A DNA stretch of 64,000 nucleotides from Fimbriiglobus ruber (GTDB taxonomy: Bacteria > Planctomycetota > Planctomycetia > Gemmatales > Gemmataceae): the NCBI RefSeq assembly GCF_002197845.1, contig NZ_NIDE01000017.1, positions 62,001 to 126,000 on the forward strand, read 5' to 3'. Under the pieces are notes generated by a model that was not told the origin of the DNA, searched no databases, and worked only from the letters and a program-made list of their open reading frames with translations. Shown here piece by piece: positions 1 to 63,542 of the stretch. Every line of letters starts with the position of its first letter. The first letter of the stretch is position 1. The translations under genes and the position numbers were made by a program.

Positions 1-223
1 CCGCCACACCCCGATCAGAGGGTTGAGGTTGATTCGCGTAGGGCAAACCGTCGCGGCGAAGCGGGATGTTCGTGGATAGGACTGGAAGGGTTCCACCGAG
101 CAGCCGGATCTCATGGAGAAGGCAGTCGCGAGCCGTGGCAAACGAGACATCAAACCGGCTTCGTTGGGGATTACGGGTCCGGGGTTTTCCGGAGGGCCAT
201 GCTAACGGGAACGCTTCAGTCAT
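1..223 (-). CDS. Hypothetical protein, C-terminus cut by window edge
   Basis: Seventy-four residues are visible, starting MTEAFPLAWPSGKPRTRNPQ and running open to the window edge. The start ATG (223-221) overlaps the stop of the upstream gene as ATGA, the same junction used along this operon. The segment containing LPVLSTNIPLRRDGLPYA resembles a small hypothetical protein family seen in phage and mobile elements, as I remember it; I do not know its function. It is the last visible gene of a minus-strand operon that starts near 3756. Confidence 0.6.
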   Translation of the reverse strand, partial: MTEAFPLAWPSGKPRTRNPQRSRFDVSFATARDCLLHEIRLLGGTLPVLSTNIPLRRDGLPYANQPQPSDRGVA

Positions 224-564
224 TTATCCTCACTTTCTGTGATTACTTCTCTCACTGCCTGAATCCCCTCGGCTACCGCTTCCCGTAACCCTGAGCTCAG
301 CAACTTCACCGAGCCGGACAGCCTCAACACCTCCAGAGGAACGACAGCGGTTACCGCGGCTCTCTTCAACTGCTCGACCTGGCCCTGAAGCCGCTCGCAC
401 TCTGCCTGTAGGTCCGCGATCGACGCCACGGCCCCCTCGGTATTCACCTCCTGGGCACCCATCAGTGCCAGTAGCTGGTCATGAACCCTCACTGCTTTTG
501 ATGAGACATGGAACCCTTCAGAGACGAGACTGTCGCGAGAGGCGGTGATCTGGTCGGGGGTCAT
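220..564 (-). CDS. Hypothetical protein with coiled-coil segment
   Basis: A 114-residue protein if started at the ATG at 564, which overlaps the upstream stop codon as ATGA. An alternative ATG 13 codons earlier would overlap the upstream gene further. The middle (DLQAECERLQGQVEQLKRAA) has a heptad-like pattern suggesting a short coiled coil. No enzymatic motif is visible. It sits in the tiny-gene operon of mobile element 1 and overlaps the next gene by 4 bases. Function unknown. Confidence 0.6.
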   Translation of the reverse strand: MTPDQITASRDSLVSEGFHVSSKAVRVHDQLLALMGAQEVNTEGAVASIADLQAECERLQGQVEQLKRAAVTAVVPLEVLRLSGSVKLLSSGLREAVAEGIQAVREVITESEDK

Positions 565-19882: not shown

Positions 19883-20158
19883 GTGAAAGATCCGCCAAGC
19901 GGGGCGAAGGAACGCCCCGTCTGCGAGTACAAGGAAGCGATGGTGATAACGGGCCTGAAGAAGACCAAACTGTATGACTTGTTTCGTCGTGGTGTCCTGC
20001 TTGGATACCGTGACGGCGTAATGATCCGCTTCTACCGTTCTTCGCTTCTCGACTACATGAAGAAGCGGGAAAACACACCCGCTCCTCTACCGCCTGCTCC
20101 GAAACCTGTCCGCCGTTCTTTCCGGCGACCGTCTGGAACGCAATTCAAGTTCCTGTAG
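19883..20158 (+). CDS. Excisionase-like helix-turn-helix protein
   Basis: GTG start at 19883 preceded by CCGGAG. The core CEYKEAMVITGLKKTKLYDL followed by RGVLLGYRDGVMIRFYRSSL is the winged-helix pattern of excisionase/MerR-like (HTH_17) proteins, with a basic Pro-rich tail. It converges on the integrase gene and overlaps its 3' end by 14 bases, the usual genetic neighbourhood for recombination directionality factors. Role as excisionase is inference. Confidence 0.65.
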   Translation: MKDPPSGAKERPVCEYKEAMVITGLKKTKLYDLFRRGVLLGYRDGVMIRFYRSSLLDYMKKRENTPAPLPPAPKPVRRSFRRPSGTQFKFL

Positions 20159-21260
20159 GCTTCCGGCTTTGGTTCAAAAGATCGCGGAGCCGGTTTACCT
20201 TCGCCGCAACGTGGGAATAGTTCCGGTGGATCACCCCAGGGGTGTTACCAAGGATTGCGGCCACATCGGTGTCGGAGTGTCCTTGTTCGAGGAGTGCCGT
20301 GGCGCGGGTATGGCGGCACGAATAAGCCGTGAACCGACCCTTCAGGCCTGCTCGCTTTGCATAATGCAGCACGGTGTTTGCAAGCCGCAGATCGGTCCAG
20401 GGTAAGCCGGTGGGGGTCCGAAAGATCGGCCCATCTGGGTACTTCTCAGCAAGGCGGTGAACGATCACCCGGGCCGCGTCGGTCAGTGGCACCACCAGCG
20501 GTCGGCCGGTCTGCTTGAAGGTCTTGTGGACGGCACTCCCCGCTTCGGTGTTCCAGTCCGCGAACATCAACGCATTCCCGTCCTCGGTCAAGTTCGCTTT
20601 CGAGGCCCGCGAGAGATTCACTGGACGAGTACCGGTTTCCCACGCGACGAACAGAACGTCCCGCACTTCTTCCGACTTCACCAACTTCATTAGGTCGGAA
20701 AACTCCTGGTCGCTTACGACCACCTCGGCCGATCGCTTCCGCATGGTTGGGAGCGGCATTCCATCGAGTGGGTTCCGAGGGATGATTGCTCCGCCTTTGC
20801 CGGCAGCCGTGGCCCACCGAAAAGCCGCTTTGAACGCAGCCCCGGACAGGTTGCGAGTAGAGTTGCCCCAATCCGGATGGCTGGCCTGCCACCATCCGTG
20901 GATGTGTGACGGCTTGAGGTCGCAGACCAAGAGCTTGGGATAACGGGCGAGGAACGATTTGAAGTAGCCCGCGTAAGTCTCGAAGGTCTTCGTTGTGACC
21001 TTACGTCGCTCCATGTCCTGGAGGTAGAGGTCGAGAATCGTCCGGACTTCGTTGTCAGATCCGTTGTCGGGTGCAGCGGCCATGACCGCCATTTCGTGCC
21101 AGACCTTTTCCGCACCGAGCCGATTGTCTTTCCCGCGGACCGGGTTTCCCTTGCCGTCTACCAACGGCTGTTTCTTGCCGTCGATCGTGACAAACCACTG
21201 ATCGCGTTCACCTCGATACCACGGCTTTCCTCGAACTCCCCGTTCCCGCGTGCGTCCCAT
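20145..21260 (-). CDS. Tyrosine recombinase (integrase)
   Basis: 371 residues from the ATG at 21260, which has AGGAGGGG right upstream; the open frame extends ten codons further. The N-terminal part carries an AP2-like arm (GKPWYRGERDQWFVTIDGKK), then a core-binding domain, then the catalytic domain. Catalytic residues are visible: R212 in ETGTRPVNL, R316 in YSCRHTRAT (with Tyr where the first His of H-x-x-R usually stands, a common variant) and Y348 in HRNYSHV. It sits 110 bases from the tRNA fragment that marks the element boundary and faces into the element. Confidence 0.9.
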   Translation of the reverse strand: MGRTRERGVRGKPWYRGERDQWFVTIDGKKQPLVDGKGNPVRGKDNRLGAEKVWHEMAVMAAAPDNGSDNEVRTILDLYLQDMERRKVTTKTFETYAGYFKSFLARYPKLLVCDLKPSHIHGWWQASHPDWGNSTRNLSGAAFKAAFRWATAAGKGGAIIPRNPLDGMPLPTMRKRSAEVVVSDQEFSDLMKLVKSEEVRDVLFVAWETGTRPVNLSRASKANLTEDGNALMFADWNTEAGSAVHKTFKQTGRPLVVPLTDAARVIVHRLAEKYPDGPIFRTPTGLPWTDLRLANTVLHYAKRAGLKGRFTAYSCRHTRATALLEQGHSDTDVAAILGNTPGVIHRNYSHVAAKVNRLRDLLNQSRKPTGT

Positions 21261-21370
21261 GACAACCCCTCCTGGACGAACCGTTGGCACCTAATCCATG
21301 ATAGGTGCCTGATAGGTGCCAGAGAAAGGTCAGAAGGCGTTAATTTGCCTTGAAATGTAGCTAATTCTTA

Positions 21371-55706: not shown

Positions 55707-57272
55707 ATGCCTCTCCCGCCGCCTGATTTGCCGACGCTCGTTCGCCGCGGCCAGATTTATGCCCGCCGGCGGGAGCCAGAGCGCGCGCTGGAAGCCTTCT
55801 CCGGGGCCATCGACCTCGTGCCGGATGACCCGGACCTGTACTACCAGCGCGGCAACGTGTACGCGATCACCGGGCAGTTCGATCTGGCCGTCGAAGATTT
55901 TTCGCTGGCCATCGTCCGCGACCCGACCCACGCCGCCGCGTTCCACAACCGGGCGACCGCGCTGGCCGATCGCGGAGATTTGGACGCCGCCATCGGCGAC
56001 TACACGGAATCGATCCGCCTCAACCCGGCCGACCCGGACCCGCTCAACGGCCGGGCAGCCGCCCTCAGCCGCAAGGGGGACTACGCGGCCGCCCTCGCCG
56101 ACTACGCGGCCGCCCTCGCCCTCGACCCGACCAGCCACCGCCTGCTTTTCAACCGCGGCAACTGCTATTCGGCCCAGGGCTCGTACACCGAGGCCGCGGC
56201 CGATTACACCGCCGCCCTCGCCCTCCACCCGCGGAACCCGCGGGCTTACGTCTACCGGGCGGTCTGTCACGACCGACTCGGCCGCCCGGACGACGCGGTC
56301 GCCGACCTGTCCGCCGCCCTCCGCCTCGACCCCCAATTGCCCGAGGCCTTTTTGCACCGCGGGCGGTTGAGTGCGGCGAAGGGGGAACACGAGCGGGCCG
56401 TCGGGGATTACACGCAGGCGGCCCGGCTCGCCCCGGCGGACGCGGCCGCTTACAACCTCCGCGCGGTGTCCCGGGCCGAACTCGGCGACCCCGCCGGCGC
56501 GATCGCCGACCTCGACCGGGCGGTCGCCCTCGACCCCGACGACGGCGGCCCGGTGTTCAACCGCGGGTTGATCCGCGCCCGGCAACGGGAGTGGGCGGCG
56601 GCCGCGGCCGACTTTACGGCCGCCGTCCGCCTGTCGCCCGAAGACCCGCTCGGGTTGCTCCAGCGGGGGTATGCGTACCTGGAAATGCGGAACCCGACCC
56701 AGGCGGTCGAGGATTTCACCGCGGCCATCGACCTCGACCCGACGGCCGCCCGCGCGCACTACGCGCGGGCGGTCGCGTACCGGCACCTCGGGGAATATGC
56801 CCTTGCGGCGGCCGGGGCGACCCGGGTACTCGAGCTGGCCCCGCGGTTCGGCGCCGCCCGCACCCTCCGCGCGGCCGCACGACTCGCGACCGGCGACTAC
56901 GCGGCGGCCGTGGCCGATTACACCGCCGCCCTCGATCTCGCCCCGGACGACCCGGCGGCGCTCAACGCCCTGGCGTGGGTCCGCGCGACCTGCCCGGACG
57001 CCGGGGTCCGCGACGGCCCCGCGGCCGTGACCGCGGCAACCCGGGCGTGTGAGCTGACGAACCACGAACTCCCCGGATTCCTCGACACCCTGGCCGCCGC
57101 GTTCGCCGAGGACGGCCAGTTCGACCGGGCGGTCGAATGGCAGGCGAAGGCGGCCGACATGGTTCAACCGCCCGAGCGGGGCGAGTACGAGGAGCGCCTC
57201 GCGGAATACCGGGCCGGCCGCCCCCACCGCGAAGCCCCGCCCGGTGATTCGCCTCCGGGTGATGTGGGGTAG
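55707..57272 (+). CDS. Tetratricopeptide repeat protein
   Basis: 521 residues made almost entirely of 34-residue TPR units from residue about 5 to 500, roughly 13-14 copies, with consensus A-x-x-x-F-x-x-A-I-x-L-x-P-x-x-x such as AVEDFTAAIDLDPTAARAHY. No signal peptide or membrane helix. TPR arrays are protein-docking scaffolds; partner unknown. Ends in a Pro-rich tail. A very long antisense frame over this gene is an artefact of GC-rich repeat sequence. Confidence 0.85.
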   Translation: MPLPPPDLPTLVRRGQIYARRREPERALEAFSGAIDLVPDDPDLYYQRGNVYAITGQFDLAVEDFSLAIVRDPTHAAAFHNRATALADRGDLDAAIGDYTESIRLNPADPDPLNGRAAALSRKGDYAAALADYAAALALDPTSHRLLFNRGNCYSAQGSYTEAAADYTAALALHPRNPRAYVYRAVCHDRLGRPDDAVADLSAALRLDPQLPEAFLHRGRLSAAKGEHERAVGDYTQAARLAPADAAAYNLRAVSRAELGDPAGAIADLDRAVALDPDDGGPVFNRGLIRARQREWAAAAADFTAAVRLSPEDPLGLLQRGYAYLEMRNPTQAVEDFTAAIDLDPTAARAHYARAVAYRHLGEYALAAAGATRVLELAPRFGAARTLRAAARLATGDYAAAVADYTAALDLAPDDPAALNALAWVRATCPDAGVRDGPAAVTAATRACELTNHELPGFLDTLAAAFAEDGQFDRAVEWQAKAADMVQPPERGEYEERLAEYRAGRPHREAPPGDSPPGDVG

Positions 57273-59055: not shown

Positions 59056-59128
59056 GCGCCTGTAGCTCAGCTGGTAGAGCACGAGACTTTTAATCTTGTG
59101 GTCGTGGGTTCGATCCCCACCGGGCGCA
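59056..59128 (+). tRNA. tRNA-Lys (UUU)
   Basis: Complete cloverleaf: acceptor GCGCCTG pairs with CGGGCGC, D-arm GCTCAGCTGGTAGAGC, anticodon arm with loop CTTTTAA (anticodon TTT), T-arm GTGGG-TTCGATC-CCCAC, discriminator A. CCA is not encoded. The integrase gene of mobile element 2 ends inside it on the opposite strand, so this tRNA is the integration target, rebuilt by the element. Confidence 0.95.
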
Positions 59129-60791
59129 CTATGCCGATCGACGCAATCCGGTGCAAATTAGCGCCGGATTGCTTGTTTTCCAGGGGTTCCGTCAACTCGA
59201 CAGGATTCCTTCCGACGACCTGAAGATTGCAAAACGATGCCGAGTGATGCCCTTCCGCGCGACCGGTCACTACGCCCGGCACTACGCCATCTCGAAGCGG
59301 CCTTTCCGCAGTCGCCCCGTCGGTGCCGGTAAGGCGAAGGGGAATGACCGACGGGCGGATCTCCGGTCCGGCGATCGATGGAACAAGGTTCGGGAGCTTG
59401 TCCACGGCCCCGGTCAAATCATAAAGCCGGCGGTGCGAATACCGGGCGGTCAGTAGCGGTGTGGAATGCCCGGCGAGTTCCTGAACGGTCCGCAGATCGA
59501 CACCGTTCCGCCCCAGCATGGTCAAGTAGGTGTGCCTGAGAGCGTGGAAGTCCGCGTGTTCCGGGCCGTCCGGCCCATCCACGGCGTAGGGAATCTTCAC
59601 GGCTTCGAGGTCGGCCCGAATCATCTCCGCGGTTCTCCCGTGCCACGTCCCGCCCCAAACCGGGTTGTTCGCCGGCTTCCCTGTCAGGTATTCGCGGAGG
59701 GCGTCGGCCACGTCGGCGGGAAGGGGTTGTATCTTCGTCCGGCGGTTCTTGGCGAACCGGGCGGCCAGCGTCACGACGGAGGCGGCGGCATCCAGGTCGA
59801 AATCAGCCGGAGTTAAGTTGGCCAGGGCGTTCGCTCGGAAACCCGTTCCTGCGGCCACGAGGTACAGCATAAACCGATCTTCACCCGTCAGCCCCCGGAA
59901 TGTTCGCCCACTCGCCCGCGTGCCCGAAAACAGCGTTTGTAGCTCGTCGGCCGTCAGTTCTCGTCGCGCCCGTCGCACATCCACGGCCTCGTTCACGATC
60001 GGCAGGCTTTCGAGCGGATCACATCCGACGCGCTTAAGTCGGACGAGCCAGCGCGTGAACCCGCGAATCGCGGCGGTGTAGCGGTTCGCGGTGGTCGGGC
60101 CGGCCCCCTTCGCACTCTGTTCCGCGATTGTTTCTACCGTCGAGCGAGGAAGCCGACGGGCCGAACCATTACCGACCGTGGGCAGGCGGTGTCGAGCCAC
60201 GAACCGGCGAACCGCGTCCACCGTCACACCGAGTAGTTCGGCCGCATCAGCCGAAGAAAAGATCTCTCCGGGCGGGATCTCTAAAATCCGGCCGGGACGG
60301 CGGAGGTCCGCCAACCAAGCGGATACCTTCCCGGCGTCCAGATCGGACGGGAACACGAATCCGCAGCCGGAAATAACCGCGTCGATTTTCGCCACGGTCG
60401 CCTGGTTGTGAGCGGCAACGTTGCCTTTCGCTTCGAGGTGCGCGGCATAGTCTTTCAAGTGCCCGGCGAGCGGTCGGCGGGCGTGTTCCTCTCCCGGGTC
60501 GGTGAACCCGGACCGAACCCGCGACGCCTTGCGGTCCGTCTCGGCGGCAAGTTGTTCGGTCGCCTTCAAGTCGGCAAACCCCTTCATGCGCCGGACGATT
60601 CCTGCGGCGTCTCGGTACTCGAAGTACCAGCACTTCGACGGCCGAAGATAGTTCCGGCCGTTTTTCGTGAGCGGGCAGAGGATCGACCGGCCGCGGTCCT
60701 TAAGGCGGACGTGCGGCTTGCCCTCGTGTTCGACGATTTCGGCGCCGGGCGGTAGTCGGCGGGTGCTGGAAAGCTTGAACGGCTTCGGCAT
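59067..60791 (-). CDS. Tyrosine recombinase with embedded excisionase-like HTH domain
   Basis: 574 residues, larger than usual. Catalytic set is visible: R319 in GTGFRANAL, H416-x-x-R419 in FHALRHTYLT, H442 in AGHST and Y451 in ARYSHRRL. The core-binding domain is split: its first half (residues 107-160) and second half (TTANRYTAAIRGFTRWLV, about 233-250) are separated by residues 177-222, which read FSSADAAELLGVTVDAVRRF, an excisionase/MerR-like HTH, followed by the basic VGNGSARRLPRS wing. About 120 residues follow the Tyr; the last dozen are antisense to tRNA-Lys. ATG at 60791. Confidence 0.85.
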   Translation of the reverse strand: MPKPFKLSSTRRLPPGAEIVEHEGKPHVRLKDRGRSILCPLTKNGRNYLRPSKCWYFEYRDAAGIVRRMKGFADLKATEQLAAETDRKASRVRSGFTDPGEEHARRPLAGHLKDYAAHLEAKGNVAAHNQATVAKIDAVISGCGFVFPSDLDAGKVSAWLADLRRPGRILEIPPGEIFSSADAAELLGVTVDAVRRFVARHRLPTVGNGSARRLPRSTVETIAEQSAKGAGPTTANRYTAAIRGFTRWLVRLKRVGCDPLESLPIVNEAVDVRRARRELTADELQTLFSGTRASGRTFRGLTGEDRFMLYLVAAGTGFRANALANLTPADFDLDAAASVVTLAARFAKNRRTKIQPLPADVADALREYLTGKPANNPVWGGTWHGRTAEMIRADLEAVKIPYAVDGPDGPEHADFHALRHTYLTMLGRNGVDLRTVQELAGHSTPLLTARYSHRRLYDLTGAVDKLPNLVPSIAGPEIRPSVIPLRLTGTDGATAERPLRDGVVPGVVTGRAEGHHSASFCNLQVVGRNPVELTEPLENKQSGANLHRIASIGIVRPVGIEPTTTRLKVSCSTS

Positions 60792-61048: not shown

Positions 61049-61609
61049 CTACCCGTTTAGCTCGGTCGTCGATGTCGGTTTTTTCGGCGTTGGCCGAACT
61101 CGATACTCGGTCGCGGATCGGCCGTGAACGCCCTTTTGGATCACCACCAGGAACCCCTCGTCGAGCAGTTCCCTCAGCCGCGCCCGGAGGTTGTCCCGAC
61201 CGACGCCGAACCGCTCGGCCAGCCTCCGCTCACTGGCGAGGGCGCTACCGTCCCGTTCACACTTCCACAACCAGCACCACACGGCCACGGCCAGCGGGTG
61301 CAATCGCGGTTCCCGGCCGGCGAGTCCGTCGAGGAACCGGTTCCACCCGGCCAGCTTCCGCAGCACGGGCGGCGGCTTCCCCTTCCTAGTCTTCTTGCCC
61401 GGGGCAGCGGGGGAAGGGGGCGCCGCTTTCCCCGTGCGGCGGAGGAACTCGGCTTCGGTCATCCGCCCGGTAATGAGGTCGGCTTCGTAGGTCGAGGCGG
61501 GGCGGACGAACCCGGCCGGCAACTGGCGGGCACCGTCGAGCCATTCGCGGGGAAAGGCGACGGGGCAGTGCCGTTCCCACGGCGAGCCGGGTTCGGGGCG
61601 GCGCGTCAC
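61049..61609 (-). CDS. Winged-helix DNA-binding protein of the replication operon
   Basis: 186 residues from the GTG at 61609, which overlaps the upstream stop as GTGA; a much longer upstream frame would run inside that gene and is rejected. The segment LHPLAVAVWCWLWKCERDGS followed by LASERRLAERFGVGRDNLRA is a winged-helix DNA-binding unit, with a basic wing (VVIQKGVHGRSATEYRVRP). The N-terminal part is Arg/Pro-rich. Likely an initiator- or regulator-type protein; last gene of the operon. Confidence 0.65.
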   Translation of the reverse strand: MTRRPEPGSPWERHCPVAFPREWLDGARQLPAGFVRPASTYEADLITGRMTEAEFLRRTGKAAPPSPAAPGKKTRKGKPPPVLRKLAGWNRFLDGLAGREPRLHPLAVAVWCWLWKCERDGSALASERRLAERFGVGRDNLRARLRELLDEGFLVVIQKGVHGRSATEYRVRPTPKKPTSTTELNG

Positions 61610-62493
61610 AGCGTCACCGTCCCACCGGCCGCCGGCGCCGGGGTCGAGGGCCCAGGCGCGGCGTCGAACCCGTCGAGCAGGTCGCCGGCGTCGAACCGCT
61701 GGTACTCGCCGCAGAACCGCAGCGAGATGTCCCGTTGTCGGCCGAATCGTTCCTTGACGCATTCCAGGCGGGACACACCGGATACCGGATCGGAGTGGAG
61801 CAGGAACGCGGAGTCGGCACCGAATTCGAGTTCCGCACTCCCACGAAACGCGGCGAGCGTCAGCCCGCCGTAAGTTGATCCGCCGTTCCGGTTCTTTTGA
61901 CGGGCTACGCTCGAAATCACCAGCACGGCCGCGCCTTGATCGGCCAGGGTGCGAATCTGGCTCATCACGGTATCGAGCTTCGCCCGATCTTCCTTGTCGT
62001 CAGCCGCGAACCGCTGGACGTAATCCACCACGGCGAGCCGGGCGTCGAACCCCTTCATCACGCCGAACAGGTTCGGGACGGAAAACGGCGGATCGAGAAA
62101 GGCGAGCCGGTCGAGCAGGTTGGCCCGGTCGCGGAGGGCGTCGTCGATACGTTGGCGTTCGATGGCAAGTAATTCGCGGTTCATTACGGCCGTGAAGTCC
62201 ACCGACGCGAACCGAGCGAGCAGCTTATCGAGCAACACCGGCGCGGCCGTCTCGACGTTCCCGACCACGCACCGCAACGCGGGGTAGCGGTCGAGAAGGT
62301 TCGTCACCAGTTGGAGCGCGAACGTCGTTTTACCGGCACCGGGCGGGGCACCGAAGAGCAGCACCCGGCCGGGGCGGATGTCGAGGGTGTCGAACGGCGG
62401 GCCGGCGAGCCACCGTTCCGGTTTCGCGTCGAGGTCGTACCGCGATCGGTCGCGGGCGAGGTCCAGGGCGGAGACCGGGCGGGGGACACTCAT
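61606..62493 (-). CDS. DnaB/RecA-like ATPase (replicative helicase type)
   Basis: 295 residues from the ATG at 62493 (MSVPRPVSALDLARDRSRYD), which overlaps the primase stop as ATGA. Walker A FGAPPGAGKTTFA (about 48-60), Walker B RLAVVDYVQRF (about 150-160), then AAVLVISSVARQKNRNGGST with the sensor pattern of DnaB-type domains. About half the size of DnaB: only the ATPase domain is present. With the adjacent primase it likely forms a helicase-primase unit. Confidence 0.75.
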   Translation of the reverse strand: MSVPRPVSALDLARDRSRYDLDAKPERWLAGPPFDTLDIRPGRVLLFGAPPGAGKTTFALQLVTNLLDRYPALRCVVGNVETAAPVLLDKLLARFASVDFTAVMNRELLAIERQRIDDALRDRANLLDRLAFLDPPFSVPNLFGVMKGFDARLAVVDYVQRFAADDKEDRAKLDTVMSQIRTLADQGAAVLVISSVARQKNRNGGSTYGGLTLAAFRGSAELEFGADSAFLLHSDPVSGVSRLECVKERFGRQRDISLRFCGEYQRFDAGDLLDGFDAAPGPSTPAPAAGGTVTL

Positions 62494-63542
62494 GCGCGCA
62501 CCGCCTTCGCGCAGCGGGTGCCGTGTTCGATGCCGGCGCGGATCTGCCTGTCCACTTCCGCCGGGTCGAGTCCCGACTTCTCGGCGGGTTCTCTGAGCAA
62601 CCCGAACACGACCGGCGCGGGCGTTCCGGCTTCGGCCAGAACAGCCGCACACCGGAAAAGCGTCATGGCGCGGCCGGGGTCTTGAATGTCACCGAATCCG
62701 ATGAAATCGAGGACGAACTTTGGCACCACGGGAGAGCAGGAAGGGGGCACACGTCCCGGCCCGTTTGCCGAACCGGTGTTGTCATCCAGGACGGCACGTT
62801 CGGCTTTCTGCCAGTCGTCGGCCAGTTGATCGCTTCCGTGCTCGACGGTCGGCACCGGGAACCCGGCCGGGTGTGCGGCCGCGGCGCGGATCGCGGCCAC
62901 CGACAACCGGTCGAGGTCGTCGAGGTCGAGGAACCGCTTGAAGAGTCCCGTCTTCGGGTGGCGGGTGTTCGGCAACCGGAACAGCCGTTGCCGATCGTAG
63001 ATCGTGCGATCCACCGTCACCCCGGCGTCACGTGCCAGAGCCAGGGCGAGCGCCTTCACCACGCCCGGCGTCCGCGGCAGCGGGTCGAACCCCGGCACCG
63101 AGAGTAGGGTGACGTGAAAGCCTTTCGAGCCGGAGAACCACACAGACAACCCGCGTTCGGCGAACTCCCCATAGCGGGCGCGAATGTACCGTGCCAGCTT
63201 CCGGCAGTCACCCAGCGCGGCGTCGAGGTCGGCTTCGCGGTCGATGTCCCACGGCAACCGGCAGCAGGCCGCGGGGCCGGCGTACCCTTTGGGCGAGCCG
63301 TGTTGCCGTACATGCGCGAAGTACTCGGCCCTCGGGTAGCGGAACACCGTCTCATAAGCTTCCTTGTCGGTGTCGAACTCGGCCGGCAAGTCGAGTTCGT
63401 GATAGGCGCAGAACAGGGGCTCCGCCGTCACCACTTGGCGGAGGGCGTCGAGCGAACCGCACACGTACCCGCCGACAAGGGCGGGCGGCGTGCAGTTGGC
63501 CCCGAACGCGAACCCCGTGGTCCGGCAGTCGGCGAAGGTCAT
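62490..63542 (-). CDS. Archaeo-eukaryotic-type primase (AEP superfamily)
   Basis: 350 residues. AEP catalytic features are visible: PWDIDREADLD with the acidic pair (about residues 97-106), FSGSKGFHVTL with the S-G-K-G-x-H block (about 136-146), then IYDRQRLFRLPNTRHPKTGL (about 181-200), a segment shared by AEP proteins of phage and plasmids. The C-terminal 100 residues (VPKFVLDFIGFG onwards) may be the accessory PriCT-like helix bundle. Start ATG overlaps the upstream stop (ATGA). Expected to make primers for replication of the element. Confidence 0.8.
   Translation of the reverse strand: MTFADCRTTGFAFGANCTPPALVGGYVCGSLDALRQVVTAEPLFCAYHELDLPAEFDTDKEAYETVFRYPRAEYFAHVRQHGSPKGYAGPAACCRLPWDIDREADLDAALGDCRKLARYIRARYGEFAERGLSVWFSGSKGFHVTLLSVPGFDPLPRTPGVVKALALALARDAGVTVDRTIYDRQRLFRLPNTRHPKTGLFKRFLDLDDLDRLSVAAIRAAAAHPAGFPVPTVEHGSDQLADDWQKAERAVLDDNTGSANGPGRVPPSCSPVVPKFVLDFIGFGDIQDPGRAMTLFRCAAVLAEAGTPAPVVFGLLREPAEKSGLDPAEVDRQIRAGIEHGTRCAKAVRA

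Follow-up and report, generated by a model that had tools for sequence, protein, structure and literature searches.

Integrase locus and integrative element

The window is the whole analyzed stretch of 64,000 nucleotides of Fimbriiglobus ruber DNA; positions past its end are given in the window frame. Its last part carries the integrase end of an integrative element, with the following features.

59056..59129 (+), tRNA-Lys(TTT), target gene of attachment; the reading frame of the integrase stops within it, in antisense
59083..59130 (+), 48-bp attachment-site repeat, recurring without a mismatch at contig C17:152992-153039 (90992-91039 in the window frame)
59067..60791 (-), tyrosine integrase, 574 aa, with a winged helix-turn-helix (wHTH) inserted in its core-binding (CB) domain; open ORF, Pfam, NCBIfam, AlphaFold
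59409..59969 (-), catalytic domain, residues 275-461, with R319, K348, H416, R419, H442 and Y451; PF00589
60039..60098 (-), CB helix 4, residues 232-251; AlphaFold, sub-threshold Phage_int_SAM_1
60108..60290 (-), inserted segment, residues 168-228, with an HTH_17/excisionase-type wHTH at about 177-226; Pfam, NCBIfam, AlphaFold, without counterpart in 40 of 92 aligned rows
60300..60470 (-), CB helices 1-3, residues 108-164; AlphaFold and alignment of insert-less relatives
60513..60791 (-), beta-rich domain at the N-terminus, residues 1-93, placed like an arm-binding domain; AlphaFold secondary structure
61049..61762 (-), HTH protein, replication-initiation-like, the next gene upstream of the integrase; PHROG 270, E 4e-6, sub-threshold GntR/HTH_36
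61606..62652 (-), DnaB-like helicase / AAA ATPase; PF03796, 5e-14, PHROGs 239 and 19
62490..63542 (-), primase-like protein; PHROG 16345 'primase', 3e-14, with sub-threshold Pfam and NCBIfam primase matches
64572-64925 (-, window frame), separate HTH_17/AlpA-type excisionase-like gene just beyond the window end; PHROG 66 'excisionase and transcriptional regulator' (E 5e-8) and HTH_17 at 26.2 bits, slightly short of the cut-off of 27

The exact 48-bp repeat is the 3' part of the tRNA-Lys gene and stands at both ends of the element, 31.9 kb apart. Since it recurs there, the element of about 31.9 kb spans from position 59083 to 91039 in the window frame, past the window end. Being flanked by direct repeats of the 3' part of a tRNA gene, it is a tRNA-targeting integrative element. 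The final integrase residues are encoded antisense through the tRNA-Lys gene (59067-59130). In the circular form, the integrase frame would run on past the 48-bp repeat into the opposite end of the element, which would give the protein a different and longer C-terminus.

Deeper in the element we observe an HTH protein with an M78 peptidase, SRAP, a DinB-type polymerase, a kinase with leucine-rich repeats, and a ParA-type ATPase. The right part (L112/L113) contains a 2145-aa ORF at 75404-81841 and the leucine-rich-repeat kinase at 83762-86194, both in the window frame; the G+C content there reaches 0.70-0.73, versus 0.52-0.54 near 65-69 kb. A tRNA-Thr called by ARAGORN at 57010-57098 (-), within ORF 55707-57272, is probably false. 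None of the plasmid and phage records spans 80% of the query, and the genome and viral collections, scanned with the integrase protein alone, gave no match.

The combination of an integrase, an AlpA-type gene (PHROG 66; the Pfam AlpA match is sub-threshold), and a primase (PHROG 16345) is a PICI-type gene set. The satellites named Gram-negative PICIs are described as carrying int, alpA, and pri in one module, as in this element (PMC10111431). The host here is, however, a planctomycete, and the likeness is one of gene content.

Domain structure of the integrase

The protein encoded at 59067-60791 (-) is a tyrosine recombinase. The Phage_integrase profile (PF00589) matches residues 279-454 (E 8e-16, 58.7 bits against a cut-off of 27.1). 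R319, K348, R419, H442, and Y451 are present in 48/48 aligned rows, and H416 in at least 90% of them. In the AlphaFold model, a four-helix CB domain, interrupted by the insert, precedes the catalytic domain, and the folds of Xer and lambda recombinases match it. The best PDB chains are Xer 4a8e (Z 19.3), Brujita Int 5vfz (17.4), and lambda Int 1z1g (16.7), and the Tn1549 integrase is also among the leading neighbors. Residues 1-93 have no Pfam match; the model shows the beta-rich domain there. Phage_int_SAM_1 scores 19.1 bits, below its cut-off of 22.3, through the second half of the profile only (positions 46-81); this match covers residues 216-251 and overlaps the end of the HTH_17 match.

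A first-pass annotation, made from the sequence alone, had assigned residues 177-222 to the HTH_17/excisionase pattern and proposed that they split the CB helices. Both points stand. Pfam HTH_17 (PF12728) matches residues 178-225 (E 9.6e-8, 32.6 bits against a cut-off of 27) and NCBIfam TIGR01764 'excise' matches residues 181-223 (29.1 bits against 28.8), so that the insert belongs by sequence to the excisionase family. In an AlphaFold2 model built from 48 aligned rows (the window integrase and 47 insert-bearing relatives; mean pLDDT 81.7, pTM 0.60), the CB helices occupy residues 108-122, 126-143, and 153-164, followed by helix 4 at 232-251 beyond the insert. The insert, placed between helices 3 and 4, has strand-helix-helix-strand-helix topology over residues 177-226 (strand 177-179, helices 180-187 and 191-201, strand 213-215, helix 216-226) and a block pLDDT of 84-93. 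The model asked for by the annotation thus gives a confident wHTH and four intact CB helices. In the model of the insert-less relative L053, helices at 108-121, 126-143, and 153-165 are directly followed by helix 4 at 171-190. Since the window model keeps all four helices and L053 joins helices 3 and 4 directly, the segment is an addition to a normal CB domain; had it folded as part of one, this would have spoken against the annotation. As modelled, the module is an independent fold, with the CB and catalytic domains remaining intact. The pTM of 0.60 leaves the relative arrangement of the domains uncertain, and the tail beyond about residue 475 has low confidence.

Conservation and selection on the insert

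Codon comparisons show purifying selection on the insert for seven out of eight pairs, with dN/dS of 0.08-0.47, mostly near the values for the catalytic domain (0.06-0.24); in the eighth, the window integrase with L024, dS is saturated. The constraint is not uniform, as the pair L043-L095 has dN/dS of 0.47 for the insert and 1.81 for its 13-codon recognition helix. L203, G207, G209, and R212 are near-invariant across deeply diverged members. The basic wing is conserved, with R212 in 50/51 rows, R200 in 47/51, and lysine or arginine at positions 210, 213, and 216 in 41-45/51 (41/51 for position 210). The variable positions 191, 192, 195, and 196 face outward on the recognition helix.

Two other origins of the HTH signal were considered. 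A chance match is improbable given the curated cut-offs, the aligned members, and the selection. A recent copy of the AlpA-type gene of the element would be another source; however, a search with the AlpA region had no match to the integrases, and neither did an iterated profile at E 1e-3.

Gain and loss of the insert among relatives

Relatives of the integrase at E 1e-20 or better occur in 62 of the 95 genomes of the family. Fragments aside, some aligned relatives have 59-62 residues at window positions 168-226, and most others join helix 3 to helix 4 by 0-7 residues, with two at 22-25. The genome of the window itself encodes both insert-bearing and insert-less integrases. A quick tree was built with the insert columns removed, from 92 rows that remained after 6 fragments or wrong-frame rows were dropped from 98. 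It contains 50 rows with the insert, 40 without, and 2 intermediate; the ratio of 50 to 40 is not a prevalence, since the insert-less relatives were hand-picked from one result list. Insert status changes 10 times on this tree, and starred branches force at least four of these changes. The insert thus appears to have been gained or lost repeatedly, at least four times on supported branches, although this is less firm than the stars suggest, because starred branches deserve less trust in a quick tree with several long branches. The closest pair with and without the insert, L095 and L053, is 77% identical. Among single loci, L035 and L041 are insert-bearing integrases with stop codons or a frame shift, that is, decayed elements, and at L125 (genome G051) an insert-less integrase and an insert-bearing one are separated by about 5 kb and face away from each other.

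The first-pass annotation had also suggested a search for this domain order. A profile of the HTH plus helix 4 gave at least 57 matches through the HTH region, one ending at a contig edge and one with a stop codon, so that the HTH-in-CB arrangement occurs in at least 37 of 102 genomes of the order. In the phylum sample of 392 genomes, full matches came, among the matches listed, from the genome of the window alone, the rest being helix 4 or partial. Up to 51 candidates per genome were scored in the order and 13 in the phylum sample, and both counts are lower bounds.

Other HTH modules in the same loop

The same loop is not always occupied by an HTH_17-type domain. Among 121 ORFs of wider relatives that retain both CB halves, some of them repeating family loci, 34 have 64-67 loop residues, and the remainder have 0-32, with one at 43. 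Thirty of the 34 long loops are of the HTH_17 type, as judged by their letters. The loops of L203, L205, and L207 match instead the HTH of PF07508 'Recombinase' (21.6-23.2 bits against a cut-off of 21.1); with segments 88-95% identical, they represent one lineage. The loop of L160 has HTH_28/MerR-like matches, all below their cut-offs, and L334, from another family, is 49% identical to L160 over 72 residues of the segment. These two are probably a third kind of HTH. By sequence comparison, the loop therefore hosts HTH modules of at least two kinds, probably three, in planctomycetes.

A profile of the PF07508-type loop, run against 294 genomes of the phylum, gave two partial matches only, neither reaching helix 4. 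The third-kind query matched only L160 itself, L334, and one non-integrase ORF (L335), a 199-aa protein adjoining an ORF read by eye as a terminase large subunit. The loops of L159, L161, L165, and L246 have 26-43 residues and no obvious HTH, which indicates that this CB loop tolerates other sequence.

Association with the class of target tRNA gene

Under a strict rule of distance and strand, Ser or SeC tRNA genes are the site for 0 of 32 insert-bearing and 12 of 25 insert-less integrases (Fisher 7e-6), an association that was spotted post hoc. The tally started from 49 insert-bearing and 40 insert-less loci, of which 13 and 12, respectively, were without an ARAGORN tRNA. It left out the tmRNA locus L078, and L053, with a tRNA-Ser fragment found by BLAST, was not entered; the rule itself dropped L089 (Leu), L103, L072, L033, L054, and L084 (Leu). 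The dropped L089 is insert-bearing, with a class II tRNA-Leu gene at a distance of 142 bp. The 3' end of the insert-less L078 overlaps a tmRNA gene, not a tRNA gene.

On the one quick tree used, a model in which tRNA class and insert evolve dependently fits better (likelihood ratio 16.1, p 3e-4), and when the two were simulated as evolving independently, 30 of 3000 runs gave as extreme a pattern. Starred branches provide four independent contrasts, none contrary and most often two agreeing, for which a sign test is not significant. One clade illustrates the pattern: the insert is present in L042 and L044 (Arg) and in L043 and L095 (Cys), and absent from L048, L052, and L064 (Ser), L053 (tRNA-Ser fragment), and L051 (Thr). 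A second set was counted by eye after removal of duplicates, of wrong-strand, distant, and broken cases, and of loci lacking a tRNA. There, class II genes (Ser, SeC, Tyr) are the site for 11 of 24 insert-less integrases, a share similar to that in the first set, for 0 of 2 of the HTH_17 type, and for 0 of 3 of the PF07508 type, the latter being one lineage, all in tRNA-Cys. Overall, the pattern supports a putative role of the module at the attachment site.

The module is not needed for class I tRNA genes, as 13 of the 25 insert-less integrases use them. More generally, insert-less sisters are likewise installed in tRNA genes, so integration as such does not need it. A shift of the integration point within the tRNA by the insert was also considered; however, the attachment repeats start at tRNA positions 25-33 with the insert (four elements) and 18-31 without it (nine elements). 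Given this similar placement, the module does not shift the crossover region. Within the stretches examined, 7 of 22 elements (L020, L042, L095, L098, L089, L045, and L071) had no attachment repeat, and two others (L030 and L044) had partial repeats only.

Function of the inserted module

With moderate confidence, we interpret the module as an additional but optional DNA contact made by the CB domain, most likely one that aids recognition of the attachment site. The integrase belongs to the element of about 31.9 kb in the 3' part of the tRNA-Lys gene, and the wHTH of the excisionase/HTH_17 superfamily occupies the loop between CB helices 3 and 4, directly ahead of helix 4. For XerH, the N-terminal domain is described as a four-helix bundle plus a helix, alpha-F, in the DNA major groove (PMC5241119). 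If, by analogy, alpha-F corresponds to helix 4 here, helix 4 would be the one lying in the DNA, and the module may contact DNA while the attachment site is bound, which would raise affinity or specificity beside the core site. DNA binding by the module and its target are both inferred, and the variation of the recognition helix would also fit a loss of base-specific binding. Control of excision would be left to the separate HTH_17/AlpA-type protein, as the conserved gene neighborhood suggests.

A bolder extension, which we regard as possible but doubtful, is that DNA-reading modules can be exchanged in the CB loop as in a socket, and that gain, loss, or swap of an HTH accompanies a change of the usable tRNA genes. 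In one concrete version, the module would touch DNA at a set spacing from the anticodon-stem core, such as at the T-arm box, which would suit class I genes and not Ser/SeC genes with their long variable arm.

HTH_17/AlpA-type proteins are frequently transcription factors, and through the wHTH the integrase could bind and regulate the promoter of its own gene or an early promoter of the element. AlpA is described as activating its own promoter (PMC10111431), and the HTH of pNOB8-like archaeal integrases has been proposed to be a transcriptional regulator (PMC8371274). However, the insert sits inside the DNA-clamping CB domain, two or three kinds of HTH share that loop, and there is the link with the class of tRNA target. 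Together these point to attachment-site DNA, which makes autoregulation rather improbable.

Another scenario is a built-in directionality factor, in which the inserted wHTH acts as an excisionase in cis and one protein does both jobs. AlpA relatives are described as known directionality factors or excisionases (PMC10111431), and the insert falls within the excisionase/HTH_17 superfamily. Four insert-bearing loci have no separate gene in the upstream stretch examined: L124 and L130 (6 kb) and L119 and L133 (less than 2.5 kb). The wider neighborhood argues against this scenario. For loci with at least 5 kb upstream, an AlpA/HTH_17-like ORF precedes 17 of 19 insert-bearing integrases, about as often as the insert-less ones (16 of 19), as counted by a profile HMM trained iteratively on the same loci; the gene often lies 2.5-3.8 kb upstream of the integrase. 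The HMM found no matches on about 225 kb of downstream control DNA. The element in the window, too, keeps its separate gene, so the insert does not replace it as in a fused integrase-excisionase. Moreover, by the logic of Int/Xis systems, permanent fusion to the integrase would leave such a factor unable to switch direction on its own, short of further regulation.

The first-pass annotation had proposed that a single protein combines the recombinase with DNA binding of the directionality type. An excisionase-family wHTH within one integrase polypeptide is indeed present and unusual; the directionality role does not follow, given the separate gene in the same element and in 17 of 19 insert-bearing relatives. 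Because insert-bearing loci mostly keep that gene, we consider a fused excisionase unlikely on this comparative evidence, and the module is better read as an optional extra DNA grip than as a built-in excision switch. Excision control probably rests with the separate HTH_17/AlpA-type protein. The annotation had further noted that the equivalent HTH protein is a separate gene in element 1 of the window, and the gene at 19883-20158 (+) matches HTH_17 with 28.8 bits against the cut-off of 27. It is convergent with the integrase gene at 20145-21290, with an overlap of 14 bp.

The target of the module could be a protein instead of DNA, such as the replication protein, the AlpA protein, or a neighboring integrase subunit. 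Some HTH folds serve in protein contacts, and the variable positions of the recognition helix would suit such docking. Still, the conservation of the basic wing, including R212, and the presence of other DNA-binding-type HTH kinds in the same loop make docking an unlikely explanation. Least probable is a neutral insertion, a domain that a tolerant loop accommodates without any function: insert-less sisters integrate into tRNA genes and four loops hold sequence with no obvious HTH, but purifying selection, the near-invariant residues of deeply diverged members, and the recurrence of HTH-type modules of similar length (64-67 residues) argue against it.

Relation to known systems

Both parts of this protein, a tyrosine integrase and an excisionase-type HTH, are known; their arrangement was not found described. 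Outside subscription-only papers, the literature search gave no description of a CB domain that contains an HTH, and no solved structure with such a CB insert was present among the PDB matches listed. HTH_17/AlpA/Xis excisionases (PF12728, TIGR01764, PHROG 66) are normally separate small genes. The insert scores above the HTH_17 and TIGR01764 cut-offs, and differs from these excisionases in lying inside the recombinase while a separate gene is also kept in this element.

With the complex tyrosine recombinases, the arm-binding-domain integrases of phages and ICEs (PMC8138268), the window integrase has in common the CB domain, the catalytic RKHRHY residues, an extra (modelled) N-terminal domain, and insertion into the 3' part of a tRNA gene; it differs from them by the wHTH of about 62 residues inside the CB domain. 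The same 2021 survey reports insertions within or next to the catalytic domain, CB domains in duplicate (RitA), and additions at the termini, and the term 'helix-turn-helix' is absent from its main text (PMC8138268). XerH of Helicobacter pylori is described with extra helices in its DNA-binding N-terminal domain, the XerH-specific alpha-B and alpha-C; by the helix names given, this addition is two helices elsewhere in the domain, not a complete HTH (PMC5241119). The pNOB8-like integrases also combine a tyrosine recombinase with an HTH, the proposed transcription regulator, but they are archaeal (PMC8371274).

The comparison suggests that the CB clamp has repeatedly accepted a complete extra domain of DNA-binding type in one loop. 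Tyrosine recombinases are hard to retarget because recognition of the core site is spread over two clamping domains. Were the loop indeed a socket, it would provide a natural modular route for such retargeting. Since close natural pairs with and without the module exist, at 77% identity, any effect of it on site choice is directly testable, and such pairs would show where engineered DNA-binding domains are tolerated. The HTH-bearing integrases are common enough in the order that the label 'excisionase fusions' would mislead annotators.
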